In this document: one piece after another, positions 2,166 to 20,625 of the stretch
Layout: every line of letters begins with the position of its first letter
Numbering within the stretch: position 1 is the stretch's first letter
Assembly: GCA_030446555.1 (NCBI GenBank)
Contig: JAUJNA010000007.1
Location: 99,399-147,865 of the forward strand
Length of the DNA: 48,467 nt
Direction of reading: 5' to 3'
Origin: Chloroflexota bacterium
Lineage (GTDB): Bacteria; Chloroflexota; Limnocylindria; Limnocylindrales; CSP1-4
Program-made: the position numbers and the translations under genes
Notes under the pieces: generated by a model
What the model saw: the letters and a program-made list of their open reading frames with translations, nothing else
What the model was told of the DNA's origin: nothing
Databases searched by the model: none

Positions 2166-2990
2166 TCAGACGGCGTCGCGGCTCCAGCGGAAGACGACGG
2201 TCTCGCCGATCTGGCGTACGCGTGCCATGCCGCCGACCACGAGGGCGTCGCCGGCCTCGGGGTCAAGACTCACCACGTAGAAGCGCACCCGTCGTTCGCC
2301 CTCAAGCACGAGGTACACCTCGCTGAGTGGTCCCGCTCCCTGGGCGCCGGTGTCATCGACGCCGTACGCCCAGGCGGCCTCGATCACCTGGACCGGGTCG
2401 ATCCCCTCGGTCGCGAGCACGGCATCCAGCGCGGACGCGCACTCCTCGCGGAAGGCCTGGATGAGGGACGCGCGAGCCCGTGCGAACCCATCCACCGGGT
2501 CCTTGCAGACGATCTCGGCGAGCGGCGGCAGACCGATCGCTGGGGACCCGTCGCTCCCGGTCAGGGAGGCGTCTCCTTCCGCGGTACCCAGGGCACCCGT
2601 CGGCTGCCCGGGTGGCCCGGAGCCGGCGATGGGCGACCGGGCCGGGTCGCCACCAGCGGATAGCACCACGACGAGGAGCGCAAGCACGGCCACCACGGCC
2701 ACCGCGGCGGCGGCAGCCAGCAGAGGCGTGAAGCGTCGGGGCTCTTCCATGGATCCGGCGTCCGCGTCGTAGTCGGGGTCGGCCCACTCGCCGTAGCGGC
2801 GACCAGACGACCTGCCCCGGAGCGGCCCGGACGACACGCCGAGGGCCGAGCCGGACGGAGGGTCGAGCTCCTCGTCCGACGGTGATCCATACGGCGGCTC
2901 CGCAGGCACGTCAGGAACGGGACGTACCGGGAACCGCTCGGTGGGATGCTCGTCAGGCCGGGGGTCGTCAGGGTCGCCGGACCAGCTCAT
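2166..2990 (-). CDS. Membrane-anchored protein of unknown function, coupled to tryptophanase
   Basis: The 274-residue protein has a Pro/Asp-rich cytoplasmic N-terminus of about 85 residues, one transmembrane helix (about 90-115, Ala/Val/Leu-rich), a Gly/Pro/Ser linker, and a C-terminal extracytoplasmic domain (about 155-274) that I cannot assign. That domain ends with beta-rich segments such as SEVYLVLEGERRVRFYVVSL. The start ATG at 2990 overlaps the TGA of the upstream tryptophanase gene as ATGA, so the two are probably translated together. The open frame runs on to 3224, but that part lies inside the tryptophanase gene and is its shadow. Confidence 0.78.
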   Translation of the reverse strand: MSWSGDPDDPRPDEHPTERFPVRPVPDVPAEPPYGSPSDEELDPPSGSALGVSSGPLRGRSSGRRYGEWADPDYDADAGSMEEPRRFTPLLAAAAAVAVVAVLALLVVVLSAGGDPARSPIAGSGPPGQPTGALGTAEGDASLTGSDGSPAIGLPPLAEIVCKDPVDGFARARASLIQAFREECASALDAVLATEGIDPVQVIEAAWAYGVDDTGAQGAGPLSEVYLVLEGERRVRFYVVSLDPEAGDALVVGGMARVRQIGETVVFRWSRDAV

Positions 2991-4360
2991 GCGATCGGCG
3001 CGAACCGAGCGGTGAAGTGCCGGAGGCTCCGAGGCGCCTGCGTGATCCGCAACCCGCGCAGCTGGGAGGCGCGCTCGGCCACCCAGCGCACCACCTCGAT
3101 GACGTAGTCCACGTGCGACTGAGTGTAGGTCCTGCGGGGGACGGCGAGGCGCACCAGATCCATCGAGGCCGGTGACTCGGTGCCATCGGGCCGCAGCCCG
3201 AACATGACCGTCCCGATCTCGCACCCGCGGATGCCGCCCTCCACGTACAAGGCACAGGCCAGTGCCTGGCCGGGATACTGGAGCGGCGGGATGTGCGGCA
3301 GCAGGCTCCTCGCGTCGAGATAGACGGCATGACCGCCGATGGGCTGCACGACCGGTACACCGGCCTCTGCCAGGGCCTCCCCAAGGTACGCGGTGGAGCG
3401 GATGCGGTAGCGCAGGTAGTCCTCTTCCACCACCTCGTGGAGCCCCTCCGCGATGGCCTCGAGGTCGCGTCCGGCCAGCCCTCCGTAGGTCGGGAAGCCT
3501 TCGGTCAGGATGAGGACGTCCCGGCAGCGCTCCGCGATGTCGTCGTCATCGAGCGCCAGCCAGCCGCCGATGTTCGCCAGGCCGTCCTTCTTGGCCGACA
3601 TCGTCATCCCGTCCGCGAGCGAAGCCATCTCGCGGACGATATCGGGGATCGGCGTCGACTCGAAGCCAGCCTCGCGCTGGCGGATGAACCAGGCGTTCTC
3701 CGCGAAGCGGCACGCGTCGAGGAAGAGCGGCAGCCCGTGCGCGTCGCAGACCGCGCGCACGGCGCGCAGGTTGGCCATGCTCACCGGCTGGCCGCCATTC
3801 GAGTTATTGGTGATGGTCATGAACACGGCGGGGATCGACGCTGCCCCTCGTTCATCGATGAAGCGGTCGAGCGCCGCGACGTCGATGTCTCCCTTGAAGG
3901 GCAGGATCTCGGACGGGTCGTGACGTGGTGTCAGGTCGACCGCCTCGGCTCCGGTGGTCTCGATGTTGGCGCGGGTGGTGTCGAAGTGGGCGTTGCTGGG
4001 CACCGCCCTGCCGGGCCCGCAGATGACGGAGAAGAGGATCTTCTCGGCGGCCCTTCCCTGGTGGGTAGGGATGACGTGCTTGAACGGGAAGAGGGCCTGG
4101 ACGGCATCGCGGAAGCGGAACCAGGAGGGCGATCCGGCGTACGACTCGTCACCGCGCTGGATGCCCGCCCACTGGTCACGGCTCATCGCACCGGTGCCGG
4201 AATCGGTCAGCAGGTCGATCAGGACGTCGTTGGCATGGAGCCCGAAGAGGTTGTGACCGGCCTCCTCCAGGCGAGCGGCGCGCTCTTCGCGAGTCGTCAT
4301 CCGAATCGGCTCGATGGAGTGGATGCGGAACGGCTCGATGATCGTCTTCCAGCGGTCCAC
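2987..4360 (-). CDS. tnaA: Tryptophanase (beta-eliminating lyase)
   Basis: This is a PLP enzyme that cleaves L-tryptophan to indole, pyruvate and ammonia in the cytoplasm. Family landmarks are present in order: EPFRI-HSIEP near the N-terminus, VLIDLLTDSGTGAM, IPTHQGRAAE, the PLP-lysine motif MTMSAKKDGLANIGG (second Lys, about residue 258) and a C-terminal LRHFTARF. At the position where tyrosine phenol-lyase has its substrate Arg (MERG), this protein reads CEIG, as E. coli TnaA does (VEIG), so tryptophanase is favoured over phenol-lyase. GTG 4360 was chosen because it gives the short TnaA-like leader; GTG 4423 is an alternative, and ATG 4300 would cut off the conserved EPFRI. No tnaC-like leader peptide or tnaB permease is visible. 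It is coupled by ATGA to the following membrane protein. Confidence 0.88.
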   Translation of the reverse strand: MDRWKTIIEPFRIHSIEPIRMTTREERAARLEEAGHNLFGLHANDVLIDLLTDSGTGAMSRDQWAGIQRGDESYAGSPSWFRFRDAVQALFPFKHVIPTHQGRAAEKILFSVICGPGRAVPSNAHFDTTRANIETTGAEAVDLTPRHDPSEILPFKGDIDVAALDRFIDERGAASIPAVFMTITNNSNGGQPVSMANLRAVRAVCDAHGLPLFLDACRFAENAWFIRQREAGFESTPIPDIVREMASLADGMTMSAKKDGLANIGGWLALDDDDIAERCRDVLILTEGFPTYGGLAGRDLEAIAEGLHEVVEEDYLRYRIRSTAYLGEALAEAGVPVVQPIGGHAVYLDARSLLPHIPPLQYPGQALACALYVEGGIRGCEIGTVMFGLRPDGTESPASMDLVRLAVPRRTYTQSHVDYVIEVVRWVAERASQLRGLRITQAPRSLRHFTARFAPIA

Positions 4361-4495
4361 GGCCCGCAGGATACGCCCACCGATGCCGCGCGAGACGTGT
4401 GGCGGCCCCGGCCGTGTTCGCACTTCAAGGCGTGGATCCCGACCAGGCCATCTTCATGGGATCCACGAGTCCGCTGGTTCGCTTGGCAAGGGCGA

Positions 4496-4741: not shown

Positions 4742-5496
4742 CTACTCCCTGGGGGGCGGCTCCGCGAGCGCGTCGAGGGCAGCGGCGATGACGTGATCGG
4801 TGATGCCGTCGCCATCGATGGGCACCGCTCCCTCTCCCTCCGGGCACCGATGATCTGCAGGACGCTGGCTGCCGTGACCCGGCCGCGTCGCGGGGCGCCT
4901 TCGCGGCAGCGGCCGCAGCCGCGCGAGCGCACAGGTAGAACAGCGGCGCGCTGCCCATCTCGAGGGCGAGGATGCCGCGCGAGCGCCACCTGGCCATCGT
5001 CGTCTCGCCGGGCATCACATCCACGGTCGCCACGCTGCCATGTCGGACGCTGGAGCCGCCTGCCGCGAGGCCGATGCTCAGGGCATCCACCAGCGCCCAG
5101 TCCGCGGCCGGCACGATAAGCGCTCCATGCACGTAGGTCCGCGTCGTGCCATCGGCCGGGCCCGCCGCCAGCGGGACGACGATGTCGCCGGGACCGGTGT
5201 CAGCCGCCACGCCCACGGCACTGGCCACGCGTACCAGCCGCTGCGCCCCGGACATCAGCAGCTCCTCCACGACCATCGCGGTAGCCGGGGCGCCGACGCC
5301 CGTGGTCTGGATGGCCACGGGCCGTCCATGCCACCACCCGCGGAACGCCGAGGCCGCGGTGGGAGCCGATGCGCTCGGGCAGGGCGGGGTGGTCGTCCAG
5401 GAGGGAGGCGACCCGCTCAGCGAGTCCGGCGCTCTCGACCAGGAGCGCGTGGGGCGGCCGATCTCCGGGCTCTGCGCGGAGCAGGATCGTGGGCAT
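4742..5496 (-). pseudogene. Nucleoside phosphorylase (PNP/UDP family), frameshifted
   Basis: Three reading frames must be joined to give one phosphorylase of about 250 residues, the normal family length. From ATG 5496 the first frame gives PTILLRAEPGDRPPHALLV up to about 5360. A second gives FRGWWHGRPVAIQTTGVGAP and then EELLMSGAQRLVRVASAVGV, the family Gly-rich and RVGTAGG-like regions, and later LALEMGSAPLFYLCA, matching the conserved VEMEAAALF. A short stretch, VTAASVLQIIGA, is in another frame, and the C-terminus VPIDGDGITDHVIAAALDA in a third, ending at TAG 4742-4744. The gene lies 25 bp after the GT2-DUF2064 gene in the same direction, as the last member of that run. Because the motifs are otherwise well kept, recent decay or sequence error are both possible. 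The substrate (uridine, purine nucleoside or other) cannot be told. Confidence 0.7.
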
Positions 5497-5521
5497 CGTC
5501 CGGCGCTACGCGACCCCTGGA

Positions 5522-6961
5522 CTACGCGGCGCGCCCCACGGTCCAGCGCCGGACCGTGGCGTCGTTCTCCACCAGCCAGCGGTGGACGTTCGGGAACCGG
5601 TCAGGATGGCGGTTCACCGTGTCGGCGAAGTCGGGGAGGTCACGGCCCACGTCCAGGTCGACCCAGGCTCCCAGCGTGCGCGGATGCCAGCCGTGCCGGC
5701 GGAGCGCCTCGGTGGTCGAGGACAGCGCGTCGGCCCCGCCCATGGGCACCCGTTCGAAGGCGCGTTCCAGCCGCGCTGCCAGCCGTCGCCGCTGCCACCG
5801 TGCGACCACCGGCAGGCGCTGCCGCCAGCGAAGCCCCACCAGGTAGTAGCCACCGTCGGGACACGGCCCGATGACCGCGGAAGCGTCCGTCCGCAGGCTG
5901 CGCGGCATCGGCGAGGAGCGAGGCAGGAGGGTGGGGCTGTCGGCGGCGACCGCGATGGCCCAGCCCGCACCGCCGTCGAACGCCGCGAGGAACGTGTCCA
6001 CCAGCGCCCCCGAGAGACCAGCCCGCCGCTGGACCGCGATGGACCAGGCGGGACCCAGCAGGTCGCGGATGACCGTCGCGTCGTGCGCTGCCGGCACGAC
6101 GGCGAGCGCCCGCAGCCGTGCCTCGGCCGCCGACGCGGCGAGGGCAGCACCTCCATCGGCGAGGCAGGCGGCCCAGAGCGAGCGCGTCGCGTCCCCGCCG
6201 ATGTCGGCCGCCAGGCGCGTCTTGGCGTGACCGTCGATGGGCGCTTTGGCCATCAACGCCAGCACCGGTCGGGCCCGGGTCTCACGCCACGCGACCGCGA
6301 CCATCGCTCGACCCGCGGCGAGCGACGCGCGCCACGATCCGCTGACCTTGCTTCGGCCGCCCTGACGGCGACGAAAGGCGACGGGGCGCTGGACCACTCG
6401 CAGGCTGCGGTCCGACAGCGCACGGGCGACCGACTGCACGGTCCAACCGTAGCCGGCGTCGTCGAGGGCGAGGCGCTCGAGTGCCGCCGCCCGGAAGACC
6501 TTGAACGGCGGCAGGTCGGACACGCGGCGCCCGGCCCTGACGCTCACGATGGCAGCGACGAGCGCGTTGCCCATCCGGGCATGCCACGGCATGGCGCCCG
6601 GCTCGATGGCGCGGGCGAGACGCCGGCCAAGCACCACGTCAGCGCGATCGAGTCCGCCGGCCAGTGCACCCAGGTCGCCGGGGTCACAGGAGCCGTCACC
6701 ATCGAGGAAGGCCACTGCCGTGTGCCCGGTCTCGAGCGCGACGCTCGCGCCGGTGAGGCAGGCGCGACCGTATCCTCGCCGCGGCTCGTCCACGACGTCG
6801 GCACCCGCGGCCGTGGCGATCCGGGGTGTGCCATCGGTCGAACCCCCATCGATCACGAACGCGCAGCACGCACCGGCGCCCCGGAGACCGTGCACCAGCG
6901 GACCGATGGCCCGTGCCTCGTCGATGACGGGGATCACGGCGGCGAGCCGGTGGTCAGTCAC
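5522..6961 (-). CDS. Fused family-2 glycosyltransferase and DUF2064 (TIGR04282-like) transferase
   Basis: Residues 1 to about 235 form a GT2 domain: AAVIPVIDEARAIGPLVHGL, the nucleotide-binding GGSTDGT, GYGRACLTGA and the DxD-like FLDGDGSCDP. Residues about 238-440 match the DUF2064/TIGR04282 nucleotidyl/glycosyltransferase-like fold: LALMAKAPIDGHAKTRLA, AVAADSPTLLP and GPCPDGGYYLVGLR. These two families are usually separate neighbouring genes; here they are one 479-residue chain. The GT2 half resembles polyprenyl-phosphate sugar transferases. It overlaps the upstream DUF2079 gene by 8 bp and is followed by the broken nucleoside phosphorylase. The likely role is transfer of a sugar, or sugar-like group from a nucleotide donor, to a lipid or small acceptor. 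The acceptor is unknown. Confidence 0.85.
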   Translation of the reverse strand: MTDHRLAAVIPVIDEARAIGPLVHGLRGAGACCAFVIDGGSTDGTPRIATAAGADVVDEPRRGYGRACLTGASVALETGHTAVAFLDGDGSCDPGDLGALAGGLDRADVVLGRRLARAIEPGAMPWHARMGNALVAAIVSVRAGRRVSDLPPFKVFRAAALERLALDDAGYGWTVQSVARALSDRSLRVVQRPVAFRRRQGGRSKVSGSWRASLAAGRAMVAVAWRETRARPVLALMAKAPIDGHAKTRLAADIGGDATRSLWAACLADGGAALAASAAEARLRALAVVPAAHDATVIRDLLGPAWSIAVQRRAGLSGALVDTFLAAFDGGAGWAIAVAADSPTLLPRSSPMPRSLRTDASAVIGPCPDGGYYLVGLRWRQRLPVVARWQRRRLAARLERAFERVPMGGADALSSTTEALRRHGWHPRTLGAWVDLDVGRDLPDFADTVNRHPDRFPNVHRWLVENDATVRRWTVGRAA

Positions 6962-8588
6962 CGACCGGGCTCCAGACCTGGAATCGACCGTCGTCGACGA
7001 GGAGCCGGCGGCCGGACCGCTCCAGTGCCTCCAACCATGCGCGCCGGTCCCGCCAGCGCAGGAGCCCGGTGGTGTACGGCTCGCGGTCGACGATGACGAA
7101 GACGTCGGCGCTGGCGGTCGGGAACAGCTCGAGGCGCGGCCGGTTCGCGAACGCGGCAGCCGCCCCCCAGTCGACCGAGACGGGGGCGTCGGCCGGGACC
7201 TGCGCCGCCGCCGCGCGAAGTCGCTCGAGCGCTGCCGGCCGCGCGTAGGCGGCTTCCTCCCGCGACGAGAATGGCGGCACGGACCCCCGCGTGAGGCCGA
7301 TGGCGAAAGCCGGGACGGCGAGCACCAGCAATGGCGCCGCGGCGCGCCACGCCAGCCGGCCGACAGGTCGCCTCACCGCCGGCCGCGCCGTGCCGACCGA
7401 CTCGGTGGACCCGGCTCGCAGCCCTGCCGCGTGGCGCGCCGCCTCGCGCCGGCGCACACGCCTCCGCGCGAAGGCCACCAGTCGTCGGGCGCCCAGCCCG
7501 CCCGCGACGAGAGCGGGGACGACGAGGAGCATCCCGTACTGGAGCAGCTGTTGCGGCTGCGGCTCGTGCCGGCTGAGGAGGTTCGCGATGGTCGGCGGCA
7601 GCAGCAGGAATGCCCACCGAAGCCGCAGCAGGGGTAGCAGCGCGAGCGAGAGGACGAGGCCGCCGGTCACGAGCCATCCTTCCGGTCGTGTCAGGGCGGC
7701 GATGAAGGCGGGCGTCTGCTCGAACGGCGCTCGCAGCAGCCCCAGGCCCCCACCGAGCCAGGCGTAGTAGCGGTCGACGTCGTACGCGACGCCGCCGCGC
7801 AGCGCGGGCATCACCAGGCCGAAGACGACGGCTGCCCACGCGACGGCGAGCGTGACCACGCCCAAGCCATGCCGTCGCATCCCCGACCGCAGCCGGCCGC
7901 CCGCCCGCGCGGCGATGACCAGTCCGATCACAGCGACCGGGAAGACCTGGTCCTCCTTTGCCCCGAGCGCCAGCACGGCGGCCAGCCAGAGGATCGCCGT
8001 GCGACCGGTGAGCCCCGCCCACCCGGCCAGGAGGACCAGGGGCAGCGCCAGGACCTCGGTGTGGAAGCCGGCCCGAGTCTGCTGCTGGATGACGGCCCAG
8101 AAGGGGATGGGTGCCGCGAGGGCGGCAGCGAGCCAGGCACGTTCCGCGGCCGGCCGCAGGAGCGCCCGCAGGAAGAGGAAGGCGGTGATCGGTGCGAGGG
8201 TGATCGCCAGCGCCTGGAGCAGCATCAGCAGCCGCGCGTCGGGCCAGAGCGGGTGCAGGGCCGCCGGTACGAGCAGCAACGGCGAGAAGTGGAGGCCCAG
8301 GAACTCCCCGGGATTGAAGCTCGACCGGAAGCCGCCGCCGTGTGCCAGGTTCCACACCAGCTGCTGGAAATAGGCGTAGTCGAAGGCGCCGGAGGTCAGG
8401 CCTTCGGCGCGACGAAGGCTCATCACCAGGTGCCACGTCCCGCCGACCGCCGCGCCGAGCGCGGTCACGAGCCACGGCAGTGCGGTCGCGGAGAGGCGCG
8501 GCCTCGAGAGCGCGAGACCGCGCGCGCCGGCCCGCCCGCGCGCGCCGGCCGTCCCTTGTGAAGCGGCACGGGTCCGCACGATGCTCAC
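6954..8588 (-). CDS. DUF2079 polytopic membrane protein
   Basis: A 544-residue protein with roughly ten hydrophobic segments. It carries the DUF2079 signature early on, FDYAYFQQLVWNLAHGGGF, then FLGLHFSPLLLVPAALH and LLLQALAITLAPI. DUF2079 proteins are predicted to be GT-C-like membrane transferases, but their reaction is not established. A long Arg-rich cytoplasmic loop lies between the last helix pair, and a soluble C-terminal domain of about 120 residues follows. GTG 8588 overlaps the stop of the epimerase as GTGA, and the 3' end overlaps the GT2-DUF2064 gene by 8 bp, so it is in the middle of the coupled run. A GT-C role in lipid-linked sugar transfer would fit the neighbouring sugar genes. 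Confidence 0.83.
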   Translation of the reverse strand: MSIVRTRAASQGTAGARGRAGARGLALSRPRLSATALPWLVTALGAAVGGTWHLVMSLRRAEGLTSGAFDYAYFQQLVWNLAHGGGFRSSFNPGEFLGLHFSPLLLVPAALHPLWPDARLLMLLQALAITLAPITAFLFLRALLRPAAERAWLAAALAAPIPFWAVIQQQTRAGFHTEVLALPLVLLAGWAGLTGRTAILWLAAVLALGAKEDQVFPVAVIGLVIAARAGGRLRSGMRRHGLGVVTLAVAWAAVVFGLVMPALRGGVAYDVDRYYAWLGGGLGLLRAPFEQTPAFIAALTRPEGWLVTGGLVLSLALLPLLRLRWAFLLLPPTIANLLSRHEPQPQQLLQYGMLLVVPALVAGGLGARRLVAFARRRVRRREAARHAAGLRAGSTESVGTARPAVRRPVGRLAWRAAAPLLVLAVPAFAIGLTRGSVPPFSSREEAAYARPAALERLRAAAAQVPADAPVSVDWGAAAAFANRPRLELFPTASADVFVIVDREPYTTGLLRWRDRRAWLEALERSGRRLLVDDGRFQVWSPVGD

Positions 8589-9700
8589 TCGGCGTGGCCC
8601 GCCGGAACGGCCGCCCTCCGCGAGTCATCCGGGTTCCCAGCCGTGCTTCGTGCCGCGCCCGCGCGGCGCTCCGAGGCGGTGAGCAACGGGGTCCCGCGCG
8701 CCAGCAGCCGTTCGCGCGTACCGCGCGCGGCGCGACGGACAGCGTCCTCGGCCGACCAGCGCGGTTCCCAGCCCAGCGCTCGAAGGGCGCTCGTGTCGAA
8801 GTCCACGAGCGGCGTGTCGCCGGGCCAGCCACCCCCGCCCCCGGAAGACGCGGGCTGGAAGCGCTGCTCGACGGAACCTGCCTCCAGGCCGAGCGCCTCG
8901 ATCACGAGCTCCGCGACGCGAGCGACCGACAGCGTGCCCGCGGTGCCGATGTTGTAGATGGAGACGGGCCGTGCCGGTGCCTTCACGCCCGCGAGCAGCA
9001 TGCCCGTCACCACGTCCTCCACCGCCACGTACGGCTTCCGCTGCTGGCCGTCGCCCAACAGAGCCAGGCGGCTGGGGTCGCGAAGCAGCTTGACCACCAG
9101 GTCGTGCACCACTCCGTGATTCGAACGCGCGCCGATGGTGTTGCCGAAGCGGAAGATGACCGACCGCCAGCCGTTGAGCGCGGCGAAACCGCTGATCAGC
9201 GCCTCGCCGGCCAGCTTGGCGGCGGCGTAGTACGACTCGGGCAGCAGTGGCCCGTGGTCCTCGGGCGTCGGGACGCGCGATGGATAGCCGTAGACCGTGC
9301 CGCTGGACGCGTAGAACAGGCTGCGGACGCCGCGGCGCCGCATCGCTTCCAGCACGTTCCAGGTCCCGATGACGCCCCCATGGAGGTCACGGGATGGATC
9401 GGCGGCGCCTGTCGCGATGTCGGTGTGCGCCGCGAGGTGGATGACCAGGTCGTGTCCCGCCAGGGCCGACTCCACCGCGGGCAGGTCCCGCACGTCACCA
9501 CGGATGAACGAGAGCCGCGGCGCCGATCCGTCGGTCGGTCGCAGGAACGCCTCGGATGGGGTCCACCAGTCGTCGTCGGCGCCGGACAGGTCATCGAACA
9601 CGGTCACGCGGGAGCCCTGCGCCAGGAGCGCTGCGACGAGGCTCCCACCGATGAATCCTGCGCCGCCGGTGACGAACACGCGATCCGGCGGCCAGCTCAT
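8585..9700 (-). CDS. NAD-dependent epimerase/dehydratase (extended SDR)
   Basis: A 371-residue extended short-chain dehydrogenase, probably acting on a nucleotide sugar. It has the NAD-binding RVFVTGGAGFIGG at the N-terminus, acidic DDLSG after beta-2, HLAAHTDI, the catalytic Ser in SSGTVYG and the YxxxK motif in SYYAAAKLAGE, followed by FRFGNTIGARSNHG and PYVAVEDVVTGM. These place it near the UDP-glucose 4-epimerase group, though the substrate is not certain. ATG 9700 overlaps the TGA of the methyltransferase gene (ATGA) and is preferred over a start at 9715. The C-terminal 30 residues are Arg/Ala-rich and not part of the fold. Confidence 0.87.
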   Translation of the reverse strand: MSWPPDRVFVTGGAGFIGGSLVAALLAQGSRVTVFDDLSGADDDWWTPSEAFLRPTDGSAPRLSFIRGDVRDLPAVESALAGHDLVIHLAAHTDIATGAADPSRDLHGGVIGTWNVLEAMRRRGVRSLFYASSGTVYGYPSRVPTPEDHGPLLPESYYAAAKLAGEALISGFAALNGWRSVIFRFGNTIGARSNHGVVHDLVVKLLRDPSRLALLGDGQQRKPYVAVEDVVTGMLLAGVKAPARPVSIYNIGTAGTLSVARVAELVIEALGLEAGSVEQRFQPASSGGGGGWPGDTPLVDFDTSALRALGWEPRWSAEDAVRRAARGTRERLLARGTPLLTASERRAGAARSTAGNPDDSRRAAVPAGHAE

Positions 9701-10395
9701 CGGGCCCGCTCGCACACGGCGTACTGGTACCAGCGGTCCGCCGACCTGCGGACCCGCGCCCAGGGCAGCCGGTCGGTGAGCGCGCCGAACGTCTGAGGGT
9801 CCATGACACGCACGCGCTCGCCACAGCCATCGTGTGCGCCTGCCGCGCCCACCAGCCGTGCGACCCGGTCCGCCATGCGCATCGCGGCCAGGGGCAGTGC
9901 TGCGCGCAGTGGCGAGCGTGGCTCGGCCACGAAGAGGCGCCCTCCGGGGCGGAGGACGCGATGGATCTCACCCAGCGCCCTGCCTCGCTCGTGGAGGACC
10001 GTGAACAGCCGCGAGACGATCACGGCATCGACCGAGGCGTCGGGATGCGGCAGCGACCGAGCGTCGCCCCCCTCGAACCGGCATCGGCGCAGGCCCTGCG
10101 CGTCGGCCGCCCTCCGCGCCAGCCGCAGCTGCGCCTCCGAGTGATCGATGCCCACGACATCGATGCCCGGGAAGCGTTGCGCCAGCCGTCGCGCGTAGAG
10201 ACCGGGTCCGCAGCCCACCTCCAGGACCAGCGAGTCCGCCTGCGGTGGGCCATCGGGCCACAACCCTCGGCAGATGCGCTCGGTGTCGTCGCGGAACAGG
10301 TGCTCGCGGCAGAGGGCATAGATCCGGGGGTAGCGTTCGAAGAGGCAGGCGTGGCCGTCGAGAGCCGATGGGGTCGCGTCCGGCGCCACGCTCAC
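9697..10395 (-). CDS. Class I SAM-dependent methyltransferase
   Basis: A 232-residue Rossmann methyltransferase. Motif I is VLEVGCGPGLYARRL, followed by the acidic VVGIDHSEAQL, then GDARSLPHPDASVDAVIVSR and the post-motif HRVLRPGGRLFVAEPRS. These are typical of the UbiE/Methyltransf_11 group. The substrate is unknown. GTG 10395 overlaps the stop of the Mo-cofactor oxidoreductase (GTGA), and its own stop overlaps the epimerase start (ATGA), so expression is likely coupled on both sides. The C-terminus has a short variable region likely to hold the acceptor site. Confidence 0.86.
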   Translation of the reverse strand: MSVAPDATPSALDGHACLFERYPRIYALCREHLFRDDTERICRGLWPDGPPQADSLVLEVGCGPGLYARRLAQRFPGIDVVGIDHSEAQLRLARRAADAQGLRRCRFEGGDARSLPHPDASVDAVIVSRLFTVLHERGRALGEIHRVLRPGGRLFVAEPRSPLRAALPLAAMRMADRVARLVGAAGAHDGCGERVRVMDPQTFGALTDRLPWARVRRSADRWYQYAVCERAR

Positions 10396-12077
10396 GCTCG
10401 GACCATCGCCGTCACCACGTGATGACCGCGTGCCCCTTCCGGGACGACGGGTCGCCCCCGGGCATCCTGGACGTTGCCTTCCCCGTCCGTGGCCCGGACC
10501 GCGAGCCGGGCCTCACCGGCAGCGGCGGGACGCCAATCGAAGCTCCAGAGCGCCCACGAGAGCCTGCTGCCCGGGTAGTCGAGGCGTGCCGGCTGCCAGG
10601 TGGTCCCGCCATCCACGGTCACCTCCACCAGCTCCACGCCACGGTCGGCACCGAAGGCCGTCCCGTGGAGTCGAACGGGCTGGCCGACCTTGAACGGCTT
10701 GCGGAAGTCGGGCCCGTCGAAGCGTGACCTGGGCGGGATGACGAAGTCGGGACCCCAGCCCTGCTGCTCGTAGAAGCCCTTGACGTCCTCGCCCACGAGC
10801 TCGACCTCGGTGATCCACTTGACGCTCTTCTCGCCGTACAGTCCGGGGACCAGCAGTCGCACCGGGAAGCCGTGTCTGCGTGGCAGCGGCTCGCCGTTCA
10901 TGTGCGTGGCGAGGAGCGTCGTCGGCTCCAGGGCCTTGGCGATGGAGAAGCTGTCGCTGTACCCATCGACCGACTTGCACAGGACCTCCACAACGCCCCC
11001 GCGCGGGGCGGCCGAGTCGATGAGCGTCGAGAGCGGGACGCCGCGCCAGATGGCATTGCTCATGAGACCGGCGGAGATCGAGTTGCTGATGCACATCAGC
11101 GTCGTCTCCTGCTCGATGGCCTGCATCGTACCGAGCGTGGCGAGGTCCATGGTCAGGGGTCGGTCCACGAGACCGGTGACGCCCAGTCTCCAGACTCCTG
11201 GATCGACATCGGGATCGATGACGTTCTTGGTGACGACGTAGAAGCGGTCGTTGGGGGTGATCGGCTCGATGTCAGGCCCACGCACCTGGAGTCCGTCGTA
11301 GGCGAACGTCGCATCGTCCGACAGCCGCCTCAGCAGACCGCCGCTGACCGCCAGGAGACCCACGCCGGCGGCGCCCACCAAGACACCGCGACGAGGCAGG
11401 TAGCGGCTCCCATCCGTCGCCGCATCGGCCGCCGCATCGCTCGCCGTCGCCGTAGCCGTGGCCGTGGTGGCAGCCGACGCCTCGACCTGGGTCGGCCGGC
11501 TCCGTGGCGCAAGGAAGCGAGCCACGAACGCGAGGATCAGGCCGTACGCCATGAAGCTGACGAGCAGCCCGAGCGCGGTGACGATCCGCGCGGTCGACGG
11601 CGGCAGCCCGATGGCGCTCGTGGGCAGGACCGGCCAGAGCAGCACCATGGCTCCCAGCCAGAGGGCGCTCACGAAAGCGATGAGGAAGGCGGTCGAAGCG
11701 CTAGGTCGACGCCCGCGGATCGGCCCCTTGCGGGAACGCCCGTCGGCATCGCGCGCGCGCCCGGATGGGGCCTGCTCGAGCTGTCGCAGGAGGAAGTAGA
11801 TGGCTCCGCCGATCGCTCCGGTGAGCACCTGTCCGATGAGCACCGACAGGACGCCGAGCTGCTTCAGCTCGTTGTATCCGCCCGCCCAGGAGATCAGGCC
11901 GCCGAAGTCACGCGCTGGGATGAGCGGTGCGAACCGATCGCCCACGAGCTCCGACGCGGTGGGGATGCCCGCCACCGTTCGCAGGACGAGCATCACGGTC
12001 GTCATCCCGAGAGCGGCCACGACGCCCGCGAAGAGGCCGAAGACCAGGGCCGTGATGAGCGGCTTGCGTCCGCGCAT
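10392..12077 (-). CDS. Membrane-anchored sulfite oxidase-type molybdopterin oxidoreductase
   Basis: The 561-residue protein has four or five hydrophobic segments in the first 280 residues (including VFGLFAGVVAALGMTTVMLV and YGLILAFVARFL), followed by an RR-containing segment before another hydrophobic stretch (about 225-250). The sulfite-oxidase fold follows: the cofactor Cys in TLMCISN (Cys329), HMNGEPLPRRHGFPVRLLVPG, YGEKSVKWI, and a C-terminal Mo-co dimerisation domain with VEVTVDGGTTW. Such enzymes transfer oxygen atoms or reduce methionine sulfoxide outside the membrane; the substrate here is unknown. It is the first gene of the overlapping run, so the promoter should lie in 12078-12352. 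No heme partner is visible. Confidence 0.86.
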   Translation of the reverse strand: MRGRKPLITALVFGLFAGVVAALGMTTVMLVLRTVAGIPTASELVGDRFAPLIPARDFGGLISWAGGYNELKQLGVLSVLIGQVLTGAIGGAIYFLLRQLEQAPSGRARDADGRSRKGPIRGRRPSASTAFLIAFVSALWLGAMVLLWPVLPTSAIGLPPSTARIVTALGLLVSFMAYGLILAFVARFLAPRSRPTQVEASAATTATATATASDAAADAATDGSRYLPRRGVLVGAAGVGLLAVSGGLLRRLSDDATFAYDGLQVRGPDIEPITPNDRFYVVTKNVIDPDVDPGVWRLGVTGLVDRPLTMDLATLGTMQAIEQETTLMCISNSISAGLMSNAIWRGVPLSTLIDSAAPRGGVVEVLCKSVDGYSDSFSIAKALEPTTLLATHMNGEPLPRRHGFPVRLLVPGLYGEKSVKWITEVELVGEDVKGFYEQQGWGPDFVIPPRSRFDGPDFRKPFKVGQPVRLHGTAFGADRGVELVEVTVDGGTTWQPARLDYPGSRLSWALWSFDWRPAAAGEARLAVRATDGEGNVQDARGRPVVPEGARGHHVVTAMVRA

Positions 12078-12352: not shown

Positions 12353-14672
<2,320 letters not shown>

Positions 14673-16756: not shown

Positions 16757-17488
16757 GTGGTCATCTTCGCGGCGGTCGTGCTGTGGGCGGTGCTCGTGCG
16801 CCGGGTGACGACCGCGGTGCGCGCCGACGACACGCTCTACGTTCTCCTGGGCATCGTGCCCGGGGCGGTGGTGGGCGGTCGCATGGTCCACGGCCTCGCG
16901 TTCTCGGACGCCTATCTCGCGGATCCCGCGAGCCTCCTGGACCTGGGGCGCGGGAGCCTTTCGCTGCTGGGTGCCGTGGTCGGCGGCGCTCTCTCGGGCG
17001 CCTACGTCTGTCGCCTGCTGGGCCACCCGGTGAGCGCATGGGTCGATGCAGCGGCGGTCCCGTTGCTGATGGCCATCGGGCTGGGGAAACTGGCGCTGGT
17101 CCTGGCCGGTGGCGGTCAGGGCGCGCCGCTCGAGGCACCATGGGCGCTCGCCTTCGAAGGGCCTGGCCCGTGGCTCTCTGTGGATCCTGGCACGCCGGCC
17201 CATCCCTCCCAGGCGTACGAAGGCCTCTTCGCGCTGGCGGGGATCGCGCTCTCCGCCTTCTACCTCCGTGGGCGATCCTGGGCGGGAAGCGGTGACGTCT
17301 TCCTGTTCGGTCTCGCTTGGTGGCTCGGCGGCCGCTTCCTGGCAGGGTTCACCTGGCGGGACGAGCCCATCGTGGCCGGCATCACGGGGGCGGAGCAGGC
17401 GGCGACCCTCCTGGCGTGGGCCGCAGTGAGCCTGATGATGAGCGCTCGGCGTGTGCGGTCGGGAGCTGTCCCTACGAGTACCCCCTGA
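16757..17488 (+). CDS. Lgt-like membrane protein lacking key catalytic residues
   Basis: The 243-residue polytopic protein has about seven hydrophobic segments and resembles prolipoprotein diacylglyceryl transferase. It keeps PAHPSQAYEGLFA (the HP[ST]QLYE motif) and a late GRFLAGFTWRDEP, where Lgt has its second essential Arg. The first essential His (SFHGG in Lgt) reads SLLGA here, and the GRxGNFxNG motif reads GLGKLALVLAGGG, so lipid transfer activity is doubtful. GTG 16757 is the first usual start; the open frame runs further upstream as FDPQVRLGSLSLRWEALALA, which looks like the Lgt N-terminus, so translation may start earlier from a rare codon. It follows the MFS gene in the same direction. 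Confidence 0.7.
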   Translation: MVIFAAVVLWAVLVRRVTTAVRADDTLYVLLGIVPGAVVGGRMVHGLAFSDAYLADPASLLDLGRGSLSLLGAVVGGALSGAYVCRLLGHPVSAWVDAAAVPLLMAIGLGKLALVLAGGGQGAPLEAPWALAFEGPGPWLSVDPGTPAHPSQAYEGLFALAGIALSAFYLRGRSWAGSGDVFLFGLAWWLGGRFLAGFTWRDEPIVAGITGAEQAATLLAWAAVSLMMSARRVRSGAVPTSTP

Positions 17489-17559
17489 ACAGGCCCGTAT
17501 GTGGCATGGCCAAGGCGATGGTGCTGCCCCATGCTTGTCACGATGTGGGAGGTTTGACG

Positions 17560-20500
17560 ATGCCCGTGCGATCCGTTCCCGGCCGCTTCCCGATGATGCG
17601 CGGGCGGGTGCTCGGTCCGGTGCTCGCCATGCTCCTGCTCTGCTGGCCGGTGGCGTCCGCCGCGGCCAGGGTCCCGTCCGACGCGTCCGAGCCGTACGTC
17701 GTGGTCACGACTGCCGGCCGATCCATCGATTCTCCGCTCGATGCGCTGGCGGAGGCACGCGACGCCGTGGCGGCGCAGGCCGCGGACCGCCTGGTCCAGA
17801 GCCTGGGCATCCGCCCCGCGCATCGCTACCGCTGGGCTGTCGAAGGGTTCGCGGCCCATCTGACCCCGGCACAGGTGTCGCTGCTGCGCGCGGATCCGCA
17901 GGTCCGGGCGGTGGTGCCCGACATGCCCATCTCGGGCGAAGACGGCCCTGGCCCGGGCAGCGAAGCGGGGGGCGTCAGGACGACGGTCCTCACGAGCCAG
18001 GTCGTGCCGTCCGGGATCCGCCGTGTCAACGCCGACGACTCGGCCATCGCCGATATCGACGGCCGCGATGAGCGGATCCACGTGGACGTGGCCATCCTCG
18101 ACTCGGGCATCGCCGATCATCCCGATCTCGCGATCGCGGGTGGTCACGACTGCACGAGTCCGTACCCCGACGCGTGGCGCGACCGCTACGGCCATGGCAC
18201 ACATGTGGCCGGCATCGTCGGTGCGATCGACGACGGCAAGGGCGTGGTGGGCATGGCGCCCGGCGCCCGCCTGTGGGCCATCAAGGTCCTCGGCGATAAC
18301 GACGAGGGGTCGCTCTCCACCTTCCTCTGCGGCCTGGACTGGGTGGTCGGGCAGCGCGATCCCGCCAGCCCATCGCGACCACTCATCGAGGTGGCCAACA
18401 TGAGCCTCTCCAGCCTCCTGGCGCGGCGAGACGATCGAGACTGCGGCGGGCCCGCGAACGATGTCATCCACCAGGCCATCTGCGCCTCGGTCGCCGATGG
18501 CACGGTCTACGCCGTGGCGGCCGGCAACCAGGGCTATGACGCGTCCTACCGCCTGCCGGGCGCCTACGACGAGGTCATCACGGTCTCAGCACTGGCCGAC
18601 TACGACGGGCGTCCGGGCGGACTGGCCGATCAGAGCGACTACTGCCCCTACTACAGCTACGACCGCGACGACACCTATGCCGACTTCAGCAACAGCGGCG
18701 TGGACGTGGACCTCATCGCGCCCGGCAAGTGCATCCTCTCCACCTACACCGGCAAGCGCTGGGCGCTGATGTCGGGCACATCGATGGCCACACCCACCGT
18801 CGCCGGTGCGGCCGCCCTCTACGTCTCGCAGCATCCCGGGATCCGACCCGGCCAGGTGCGCATGGCGCTGCGCCACGTCGCGAACCTCGGTTGGGCGACG
18901 AGCACCGATCCGGACGGCGCTCCCGATCGGCTACTCGATGTGCGGGCGTTCGATGACCCGCCGGGTTTCCGCGTCGTCGTGGATCCCGTCTCGGGCCGGC
19001 TGGCGCGTGGCGGGTTCATCGAGACACCGCTCCAGGTCCAGCGGTTCAACGGCCACGGCGCCCCGGTCAGCCTCTCGGTCCGGGACCTGCCCAGCGGGGT
19101 CACCGCGACGCTGCGTGAGGGCGCGGGTGGCGCGGGCGAGGTCGTCCTGCGCGCGGCGGGCGATGCGCCCACCGGCACGTTCCAGCTGACGGTCCAGGGC
19201 ACCGACGGAGAGCTCGTACGGACCGAGCCGCTGACGGTCACGGTGACGGGCGGCGCCACGACCGCGTTCAGCTCCCCGGATGGCCCGCCACCGGTCATCG
19301 GGCGCACCGCTGACGTCCTCGTGGCGTGGAGCGAATCGGGGTCGGGAACGGTCACCGCTCGCACCATCGCACGCCAGAGGGCGGTCCCGGTCGAGGCGGG
19401 CTCCTGTACGGCAGCTTCCTGGAGCGCCGATGGACAGGCGCGCCCGGTGTCCGAGGTGGACCCGGATGGATCGCCATCGGACGGGTGGAGCTTCACGGAC
19501 GGCGGCTTCGTGACGGACGGTTGCTACCGCTGGGTCGTGGCCCTGACCGACGGCGAGGGTCGGGTCGGTCGCTGGAGCTCCGGCGCGGTCATCGTGGACG
19601 CCACGGCGCCGCCCGCCCCGGACGTTGCGGCCACCGGTGAGCGAGTCTGGCAGCGCACGGCGAATGACATCGTCTGGGTGCGCGAGGGGAGTGGCACGCT
19701 TCGGCTCGAGGCGTTCGGTCGGGACGTCGCCGGAGGCACGGTCTCGACTCGCTTCGGGCCTCTCCAGGCCCCCGGCGGGTGGTCCTACTCCCCAGGGACG
19801 GTGGCCGGCGATCCGGCGGCCCGTTCCCTCTCCTGGGGAGTCGCGGCCACGGATACGAGCCTCGAGATCAGGAGCACCGACGCCATGGGCGCGGAAGGCT
19901 CCGCCCGTCGGGTGGAGCTGCGCATCGACGGCACCGCGCCCCCCAGCCCCAAGTGGACCATCCCAGCAGCAGCCACGCTGACCCGCGCCGGGGGCGACGT
20001 GGAGGTCTCCTGGGGAGGCGCCACCGACTCGGGCGCCGGCCTCTCATCCGAGCAGCTCGTCCAGCGCCAGCGCGGCCCCGTGGTCTCCACGGGAAGCTGC
20101 AGCGGGGTGGTCTTCCAGGACGACGGCCCCGCACGACTCCTGGCACGCCACGCCCGGGAGACCGGGCTGGCGTCCGGCCACTGCTTCCGCTGGCGGCTCA
20201 CGGCCCGCGATCGGGTGGGCAATCTGGGAGCGACCACCACATCAGGGACCGTGCTCATCGACCAGCGCGCCCCGGTCGGTGACTTCACCTTCCCCGAGGA
20301 GGGCTCCTTCGCCACGCGCACCAGGACGACGCTGTCGGTCCGCTGGACGCAGAGTGACGGCGGTGGCTCCGGGGCCCTGGAGCGCGCGGTGGAGCGGGAG
20401 CGGGCACGGGCCGTCGAGCCCGACCGGTGCACAGGCCTCCGCTGGCGCCTCGACGGCGGCACGTCGACCGCCGCCTCCCCGCTGAAGGCCACCGGGCTGC

Positions 20501-20625
20501 TAGAGGGCTATTGCTACCGCTGGCGGCTGGTGCTCATCGATGGTGCCGGCAACTTCACGACGGTCATCTCCGGCACCGTCCAGATCAGGGCGACCACCGG
20601 GCTCATGGCGCGCAGGATCCTCTGA
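17560..20625 (+). CDS. Secreted subtilisin-like protease (S8) with C-terminal repeat modules
   Basis: This is a 1021-residue exported protease. ATG 17560 has GGGAGG seven bases upstream and opens a signal peptide (MMRGRVLGPVLAMLLLCW, then a cleavage region near AAA). An inhibitor-I9-like propeptide spans about 45-130. The S8 domain has Asp181 in AILDSG, His212 in YGHGTHVAG, Asn323 in AAGNQGYD and Ser408 in SGTSMATP. Residues from about 465 to the end form several beta-sandwich modules, of which the last three or four share a C-Y/F-R-W core and a D-x-x-G-N/R-x-G turn (GCYRWVVALTDGEG, HCFRWRLTARDRVGN, YCYRWRLVLIDGAGN). These modules probably mediate binding. No sortase or membrane anchor is seen, so it is likely released outside the cell. 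Confidence 0.92.
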   Translation: MPVRSVPGRFPMMRGRVLGPVLAMLLLCWPVASAAARVPSDASEPYVVVTTAGRSIDSPLDALAEARDAVAAQAADRLVQSLGIRPAHRYRWAVEGFAAHLTPAQVSLLRADPQVRAVVPDMPISGEDGPGPGSEAGGVRTTVLTSQVVPSGIRRVNADDSAIADIDGRDERIHVDVAILDSGIADHPDLAIAGGHDCTSPYPDAWRDRYGHGTHVAGIVGAIDDGKGVVGMAPGARLWAIKVLGDNDEGSLSTFLCGLDWVVGQRDPASPSRPLIEVANMSLSSLLARRDDRDCGGPANDVIHQAICASVADGTVYAVAAGNQGYDASYRLPGAYDEVITVSALADYDGRPGGLADQSDYCPYYSYDRDDTYADFSNSGVDVDLIAPGKCILSTYTGKRWALMSGTSMATPTVAGAAALYVSQHPGIRPGQVRMALRHVANLGWATSTDPDGAPDRLLDVRAFDDPPGFRVVVDPVSGRLARGGFIETPLQVQRFNGHGAPVSLSVRDLPSGVTATLREGAGGAGEVVLRAAGDAPTGTFQLTVQGTDGELVRTEPLTVTVTGGATTAFSSPDGPPPVIGRTADVLVAWSESGSGTVTARTIARQRAVPVEAGSCTAASWSADGQARPVSEVDPDGSPSDGWSFTDGGFVTDGCYRWVVALTDGEGRVGRWSSGAVIVDATAPPAPDVAATGERVWQRTANDIVWVREGSGTLRLEAFGRDVAGGTVSTRFGPLQAPGGWSYSPGTVAGDPAARSLSWGVAATDTSLEIRSTDAMGAEGSARRVELRIDGTAPPSPKWTIPAAATLTRAGGDVEVSWGGATDSGAGLSSEQLVQRQRGPVVSTGSCSGVVFQDDGPARLLARHARETGLASGHCFRWRLTARDRVGNLGATTTSGTVLIDQRAPVGDFTFPEEGSFATRTRTTLSVRWTQSDGGGSGALERAVERERARAVEPDRCTGLRWRLDGGTSTAASPLKATGLLEGYCYRWRLVLIDGAGNFTTVISGTVQIRATTGLMARRIL

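Follow-up and report, generated by a model that had tools for sequence, protein, structure and literature searches.

The question raised by this locus is what a molybdenum (Mo) enzyme and a methyltransferase are doing in one gene run with what appear to be glycosylation genes, and which product such a run could make. The window (the whole stretch analyzed, 48,467 nucleotides of a contig from a soil Chloroflexota bacterium) carries on its minus strand, from 12077 to 5522, five intact and tightly packed open reading frames of the families already named in a sequence-only reading of this DNA, with a broken gene behind them:

10392–12077, minus strand: Mo enzyme, 561 aa (Oxidored_molyb and Mo-co_dimer)
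9697–10395, minus strand: class I SAM-dependent methyltransferase, 232 aa (Methyltransf_25), not ArsM-like
8585–9700, minus strand: GalE-like extended SDR, 371 aa (Epimerase), start ATG at 9700
6954–8588, minus strand: DUF2079 membrane protein, 544 aa (DUF2079 domain), with a GT-C-like predicted fold
6287–6961, minus strand: GT2 domain of a fusion protein (Glycos_transf_2), no membrane segment
5522–6286, minus strand: DUF2064 domain of the same fusion (PF09837), with a CofC-like nucleotidyltransferase profile and 3CGX as a solved relative
4742–5496, minus strand: broken gene of the nucleoside phosphorylase family (PNP_UDP_1 core), spread over three frames

The sequence-only reading described a six-gene run in a single transcript. 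Its first five genes, their families, the four overlaps and the final gap all stand. The overlaps are exact, comprising four bases at 10392/10395 (GTGA, Mo enzyme/methyltransferase), 9697/9700 (ATGA, methyltransferase/SDR) and 8585/8588 (GTGA, SDR/DUF2079) and eight bases at 6954/6961 (DUF2079/fusion), while 25 bases separate the fusion from the phosphorylase (5522/5496). An alternative SDR start at 9715 is likewise open. The five overlapping genes are likely one transcription unit, as had been proposed; neither a sigma-70-like promoter nor an intrinsic terminator was found between 4300 and 12600, a result that is weakly informative at the local G+C content. No flippase gene, nor any other gene beyond those listed, was found in the run.

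The nucleoside phosphorylase, on the other hand, was not confirmed as a working sixth gene, having no single open frame. Its start (MPTILLRAEPGDRPP...), core (a 208-aa ORF matching PNP_UDP_1 with E 2e-14) and tail lie in three different frames, which points to a pseudogene or else to a fault in the assembly. In the sister genome G079 and in G166 the gene forms one unbroken ORF, but even the intact G079 copy has lost the usual phosphate and purine motifs. The remnant in the window is not of the MTA phosphorylase (MTAP) type, and G000 (78% complete), G079, G163 and G166 yielded no MTA phosphorylase match that passed the cut-off. That a phosphorylase drives the pathway of the window is made less likely by the broken gene and by the absence of motifs from the sister copy.

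The best matches of the GT2 domain are AglJ (the best NCBIfam model) and, at the level of fold, DPM synthase, ArnC and GPGS; folds and profiles together suggest an enzyme of the polyprenyl-phosphate-sugar-synthase type. The DUF2064 domain aligns over its full length with a CofC-type profile (hhalign 98.1%, E 1.3e-13, 176 columns, versus 0.2% for a control comparison) and contains the AKTRL, DxP and DxD motifs, suggesting from its sequence a CofC-like nucleotidyltransferase. Since the profile is of this kind, the name "arsenosugar glycosyltransferase" given to DUF2064 proteins may well be misleading. For the DUF2079 protein a sequence search against PDB gave no match, and fold comparison alone related it to the GT-C transferases ArnT, OST, ALG12, AftA and PMT, with modest TM-scores of at most 0.45. 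The predicted fold agrees with the earlier GT-C-like assignment and suggests a GT-C transferase. A GT2 enzyme loading polyprenyl phosphate together with a GT-C transferase is also the arrangement of the ArnC-ArnT and GtrB-Gtr(GT-C) systems (as judged by fold matches), although those systems do not include DUF2064, a Mo enzyme or a methyltransferase. Overall, lipid-linked surface glycosylation is a highly probable function of the run.

It could be glycosylation of an ordinary kind, in which a polyprenyl-phosphate-linked hexose, possibly O-methylated by the methyltransferase of the run, is delivered to the S-layer, a lipid or a protein, as with AglJ, ArnC-ArnT or GtrB, the Mo enzyme being a passenger or a component of unrelated, MsrP-like periplasmic repair. 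Consistent with it are the GT2 matches listed above, the GalE-like nature of the SDR (which keeps the YxxxK motif), a D-glucose O-methyltransferase as the closest solved relative of the methyltransferase, and two genomes (G058 and G027) where the SDR-DUF2079-fusion set occurs without the Mo and methyltransferase genes. We nevertheless regard a plain hexose as rather doubtful, given that DUF2064 and the Mo enzyme recur with GT2 in two phyla far above chance and that an MTA phosphorylase joins the set in several genomes.

This recurrence is best seen in the comparative analysis. The sequence-only reading had called for a check of gene order in relatives, and the order Mo-methyltransferase-SDR-DUF2079-fusion is indeed the same in four related genomes (G079, G085, G163 and G077, the last cut by a contig end), at protein identities of 42–70%. 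Among 20 Chloroflexota loci picked by GT2 score alone, a Mo gene lies near GT2 in 6 (0.31 expected), DUF2079 in 7 (0.14 expected) and both in 3 (0.0025 expected). Parts of the operon thus recur, reshuffled, within Chloroflexota far above chance, and they co-localize across two phyla. One more Chloroflexota genome (G243) has the set DUF2079-Mo-GT2-DUF2064-SDR-MTAP on one strand, its MTAP scoring above cut-off. In the contig scan an alignment query gave matches and a single-protein query none. The rarity of the fusion (8 of the 177 genomes of the class) might be taken to mean that these genes are neighbors by chance and share no function; the gene overlaps and the co-localization statistics speak against this, and the order conserved at such identities refutes it, leaving chance adjacency a negligible probability.

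The earlier idea of a surface glycolipid or a sulfur- or arsenic-containing sugar has to be divided. Synthesis of an arsenosugar or another organoarsenic compound would fit the NCBIfam naming of DUF2064 and GT2 relatives as "arsenosugar" transferases and the phosphorylase-family remnant downstream. The fusion, however, reaches neither the TIGR04282 cut-off (76.7 of 134 bits) nor that of TIGR04283 (31 of 182 bits). ArsS (TIGR04167) is over cut-off in 0 of 16 genomes or records, and the suggested search for its co-occurrence likewise returned none above cut-off in the 10 genomes of the class with the cluster or its sister form. The methyltransferase scores 36 bits against an AsSugarArsM cut-off of 400, and its cysteines are invariant only in GCGPG, with no conserved ArsM-like set. 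The arsenosugar reading is rejected on these grounds as mostly refuted and very improbable.

A surface glycan carrying a sulfur sugar, in contrast, is a sensible proposition, as the same gene classes are found at the mycobacterial methylthioxylose (MTX) locus and its counterparts in relatives. In 20 Actinomycetota loci, also picked by GT2 alone, we found an SDR in 19, a GT-C protein in 18, a methyltransferase in 17, a Mo enzyme in 16, DUF2064 in at least 14 and an MTA phosphorylase in 6 (versus 0.08 expected). In a Rhodococcus locus (L206) a single run holds the Mo enzyme, methyltransferase, membrane protein, MTA phosphorylase, SDR, GT2 and DUF2064 (PF09837); a GtrA gene adjoins this set. Another locus (L239) reads MTAP-SDR-x-x-GT2-DUF2064 with a convergent GT-C gene, next to menA-like and fabH-like genes, a layout that we take to be the Rv0533c–Rv0541c gene order of M. 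tuberculosis; the MTX locus also holds MTA phosphorylase, GalE3 and DUF2064. The same seven functional classes, MTA phosphorylase included, come together in Actinomycetota at a locus laid out like mycobacterial Rv0535–Rv0541c, which is responsible for capping lipoarabinomannan (LAM) with methylthioxylose. MtxS (Rv0539) is described as making MTX-P-C50 and MtxT (Rv0541c) as transferring MTX (PMC8780516). Its sulfoxide form, MSX, occurs on mycobacterial LAM as well (PMC8531672).

The window shares with this pathway the nucleoside phosphorylase family, the GalE-like SDR, the polyprenyl-phosphate GT2, DUF2064 and GT-C classes, and with many of the actinobacterial loci also the added Mo enzyme and methyltransferase. 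There are differences as well. GT2 and DUF2064 are fused in the window but separate in L206, and the GT2 domain, although homologous to those of L206, L237 and L239 (36–39% identity over the whole domain), falls in its own clade outside the actinobacterial clade with the MTX locus. The SDR groups apart, in a clade of 10 rows that lacks the cysteine-rich insert, and is of a subfamily other than that of the MTAP-linked SDRs. DUF2079 takes the place of the actinobacterial GT-C protein, having a GT-C-like fold but no homology that we could find (hhalign 0.2%). Finally, the phosphorylase is broken and not of the MTAP type, whereas in G243 an MTA phosphorylase is present at the locus. Taken together, we put at roughly 50% the probability that the run is an extracytoplasmic glycosylation operon that parallels the methylthioxylose pathway in function but has drawn a number of its parts from other families.

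The Mo enzyme has five hydrophobic segments in its N-terminal part, with a twin arginine (R229 R230) ahead of the fifth, followed by a sulfite-oxidase-fold Mo domain (289–436) and a dimer domain. The twin arginine and the Mo-ligand Cys329 are invariant in alignment A3, and the sequence is probably that of a Tat-exported, membrane-anchored protein. It resembles the SorA/SoxC/MsrP family in its Mo domain, dimer domain and Mo-ligand cysteine, but differs in the long N-terminal membrane part and scores below every SorA, SoxC, SorT and MsrP cut-off. Its sulfite pocket also appears changed: by pairwise alignment only, other residues occupy the positions of SorA R55 and Y236, which we take to be the sulfite-binding arginine and tyrosine. 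Homologs of ~40% identity elsewhere in the class stand alone without other cluster genes, so the cluster enzyme is to be seen as a separate subgroup and not as the general family, to which most matches of a plasmid search with the Mo enzyme query belong. We found no paper tying an exported Mo enzyme to the methylthioxylose pathway.

In a pathway of the methylthioxylose kind, the sugar would derive from a 5'-modified adenosine, the model route leading from methylthioadenosine through methylthioribose 1-phosphate to lipid-linked methylthioxylose. DUF2064 would couple the sugar 1-phosphate to a nucleotide, GT2 would transfer the sugar to polyprenyl phosphate, and the SDR would epimerize it at the nucleotide or the lipid stage. 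After the lipid-linked sugar is flipped across, DUF2079 would pass it to a surface acceptor, and the Mo enzyme would modify the completed sugar outside the cell, for instance by converting between its methylthio and methylsulfinyl states. By analogy, a 5-modified pentofuranose is the most likely sugar, if a tentative one, because the same seven gene classes make up the MTX locus of mycobacteria and the loci related to it; that the Mo enzyme acts on the sulfur of this sugar is a more speculative proposal. A lipid-linked pentose donor, an epimer-setting GalE-like SDR and GT-C transfer outside the membrane are likewise features of the three-component pentofuranose addition in Citrobacter O1/O2, where the SDR alone sets Ribf versus Xylf (PMC11127046); the Citrobacter pathway, however, sets out from PRPP by means of a UbiA-family synthase and includes a MATE flippase, none of which is in the window run.

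Alternatively, the sugar might be modified by radical SAM chemistry, the core module being used for more than one kind of unusual sugar and its tailoring genes being exchangeable. In genus g9 (L034 and L036) the place of the Mo and methyltransferase genes beside SDR-DUF2079-fusion is taken by a methyltransferase together with a radical SAM protein of the Rv1681 family, and in Miltoncostaea (L126) the same radical SAM family directly precedes a central GT2-DUF2064 pair, with radical SAM, acyl-CoA dehydrogenase and PhnD-like genes in place of Mo, SDR and GT-C. These matches reach 280 of the 380 bits that the family cut-off demands, and the blocks of the window, G077, G079, G085 and G163 have no such gene, making this scenario unlikely.

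A 2024 study of pentofuranose addition called it unclear whether the methylthioxylose reaction exists beyond lipoarabinomannan assembly (PMC11127046). The genomes listed here from two phyla are places where a methylthioxylose-like reaction outside lipoarabinomannan can be tested, and two candidate members are added to the pathway, the Mo enzyme (16/20 actinobacterial loci) and the methyltransferase (17/20). It is conceivable, if speculative, that sulfur sugars of the methylthioxylose type extend beyond mycobacterial lipoarabinomannan, and that an operon family of Chloroflexota and Actinomycetota makes 5-modified surface pentofuranoses whose thioether and sulfoxide forms are cycled outside the cell by an exported Mo enzyme of the sulfite-oxidase fold. 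Such an enzyme, if it acts so, would account for the occurrence of the sugar in both a methylthio and a methylsulfinyl form.

Five intact genes on the minus strand of the window (12077-5522), each overlapping the next by GTGA, ATGA, GTGA and finally 8 bases, are what stands of the six-gene overlapping run described in the sequence-only reading. The sequence at all four junctions confirms the overlaps claimed from the Mo oxidoreductase to the GT2-DUF2064 fusion gene, while the sixth, phosphorylase-like member is split over three frames.

Members of the run
within 12077-5522, minus, first gene: sulfite-oxidase-like Mo oxidoreductase (Mo), 561 aa
within 12077-5522, minus, second gene: methyltransferase (MT), 232 aa
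within 12077-5522, minus, third gene: GalE-like SDR, ATG at 9700
within 12077-5522, minus, fourth gene: DUF2079 protein, 544 aa
within 12077-5522, minus, fifth gene: GT2-DUF2064 fusion, 479 aa
5496-4742, minus: phosphorylase-like sixth element, broken across three frames

A tryptophanase/tyrosine phenol-lyase family gene (2987-4423, minus; above the PRK13238 cut-off) lies downstream of the run, and a cystathionine gamma-synthase family gene (12353-13900) lies ∼275 bases upstream on the same, minus strand. On the plus strand, the translation of 17317-20625 reads as a 1102-aa putative subtilisin-like protease with long repeated C-terminal domains.

The run is a real, conserved operon. Of the 177 genomes of the class, 8 encode the full fusion (50-60% identity), whose distribution is patchy even inside the genus; wherever the contig continues it is preceded by SDR and DUF2079 in constant order. 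The conservation in relatives proposed earlier as a check was indeed found: the whole block, Mo and MT included, is present in the window's own genome (G000), its sister G079, G085 and G163; G058 and G027 have SDR-DUF2079-fusion alone, without Mo and MT; G077 carries Mo-MT-SDR-DUF2079 as far as its contig end. Two genomes of another family of the class (f4) have a sister arrangement, response regulator-histidine kinase-SDR-DUF2064-GT2-GT-C-Mo, whole at locus L038 and partial at L039, where the contig ends; such a two-component pair also occurs in actinobacterial clusters and is absent from the window's. In genus g9 an MT and an Rv1681-family radical SAM protein (280 bits against NF049973, cut-off 380) replace Mo and MT beside SDR-DUF2079-fusion (L034 11183-13065 in G027; L036 1486-3400 in G026), and thus the core module may accept different tailoring genes.

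On a Miltoncostaea oceani plasmid (L126 5863-13963) GT2-DUF2064 has an Rv1681-family radical SAM gene on one side and genes encoding acyl-CoA dehydrogenase and PhnD-like proteins on the other. The stretch also includes a further radical SAM/SPASM gene and a two-component pair, and is another pathway built round the GT2-DUF2064 pair. In Acidobacteria (L055, L058, L097) another phosphorylase-family gene follows the pair 2-3 kb downstream, and upstream of the pair at L055 lie genes for a methyltransferase and a radical SAM protein. The suggestion of an arsenic-containing sugar found no support, as the arsenosugar protein ArsS did not appear above cut-off in any of the 16 genomes and records searched.

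Across Chloroflexota, we picked 20 loci on GT2 score alone and then recorded the neighbours. DUF2064 adjoins GT2 in 17 of them; a close Mo homologue is nearby in 6 (0.31 expected from the PF00174 gene count per genome), DUF2079 in 7 (0.14 expected) and both together in 3 (0.0025 expected), these expectations assuming, as a simplification, random gene placement and independent genomes. Since gene order varies among these loci, the association is functional rather than due to common descent of one stretch. In the Chloroflexota genome G243 a single strand carries DUF2079-Mo-GT2-DUF2064-SDR-MTAP (MTA phosphorylase, above cut-off), with the SDR frame abutting that of MTAP. The DUF2079 and Mo proteins of G243 are of the same kind as the window's, scoring 328 and 341 bits with profiles from the window's relatives.

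The AlphaFold2 model of the fusion (mean pLDDT 86.5) matches 3CGX over the DUF2064 part and GPGS, ArnC and DPM synthase over the GT2 part, which retains GGxSK, a motif characteristic of polyprenyl-phosphate sugar synthases (G201, G202, S204 and K205 are invariant in the alignment). DUF2064 is probably a nucleotidyltransferase rather than a glycosyltransferase, because it aligns over its full length with the CofC proteins found in the class (98.1% in hhalign, E 1.3e-13, against 0.2% for the control) and has the AKTRL, DxP and DxD motifs in common with them. CofC proper is encoded elsewhere in G000 (C7:122772-123416, above cut-off), and therefore this domain is not the F420 enzyme. The first 18 PDB matches of the DUF2079 model (pLDDT 72.6) are all GT-C enzymes or GT-C-like subunits, including ArnT, OST, ALG12, ALG9, AftA, PMT and PIG-U, with modest TM-scores. 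The closest structures to the SDR and the MT are GalE and D-glucose O-methyltransferase, respectively. The Mo protein has five hydrophobic segments, the fifth preceded by an invariant RR, and its Mo domain, of the sulfite-oxidase fold, contains the ligand cysteine; in profile comparison it falls far under the SorA, SoxC, SorT and MsrP cut-offs, and in pairwise alignment its residues appear to differ at the positions of the arginine and tyrosine that bind sulfite in SorA. Our literature search found no paper naming DUF2064 or DUF2079, or linking a Mo enzyme to this locus. Overall, anatomy and context make extracytoplasmic glycosylation from a lipid-linked sugar a well-supported reading of the operon.

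The phosphorylase-like gene is a whole ORF in G079 and G166. The motifs usual in this family are retained in G166 and altered in G079 (RVGTCGG to RVAPAMA, GDPxR to VEDPE, EMEAA to ADLGT). G000 (2.09 Mb, 78% complete) encodes three further PNP_UDP_1 proteins, none of its proteins reaching the MTAP cut-off.

A Rhodococcus plasmid carries in one run Mo, MT, a membrane protein, S-methyl-5'-thioadenosine phosphorylase (above cut-off), SDR, GT2 and DUF2064. Of 20 actinobacterial loci picked solely by the Rhodococcus-type GT2, 19 have SDR, 18 GT-C, 17 MT, 16 Mo, at least 14 DUF2064 and 6 MTAP (0.08 expected). Mo and MT accompany most of these loci (L237, L238, L242-L256), but the mycobacterium-like L239 and L240 lack them. 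Two of the 20, without Mo and MT, read MTAP-SDR-two genes-GT2-DUF2064 with a convergent GT-C; at L239 menA-like and fabH-like genes adjoin this layout, an arrangement that matches Rv0533c-Rv0541c of M. tuberculosis. There, Rv0539 (MtxS) yields decaprenyl-phosphate-linked methylthioxylose, which Rv0541c (MtxT) moves to lipoarabinomannan (PMC8780516), in a pathway starting from methylthioadenosine (PMC11127046).

The seven gene classes represented in the window's run (Mo, MT, SDR, GT-C, GT2, DUF2064, phosphorylase family) are those of this extended methylthioxylose set. On the other hand, the operon falls outside the methylthioxylose locus family: its SDR and GT2 form their own separate clades, its DUF2079 has no sequence homology to the actinobacterial GT-C, and its phosphorylase is broken, with no MTAP above cut-off in the incomplete G000. 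The best description is of an operon that works in the manner of the methylthioxylose locus, probably with a different sugar, or stereochemistry of it, and a different acceptor. We infer that the sugar would be methylthioxylose-like and that the Mo enzyme would act at its sulfur, two proposals open to testing.
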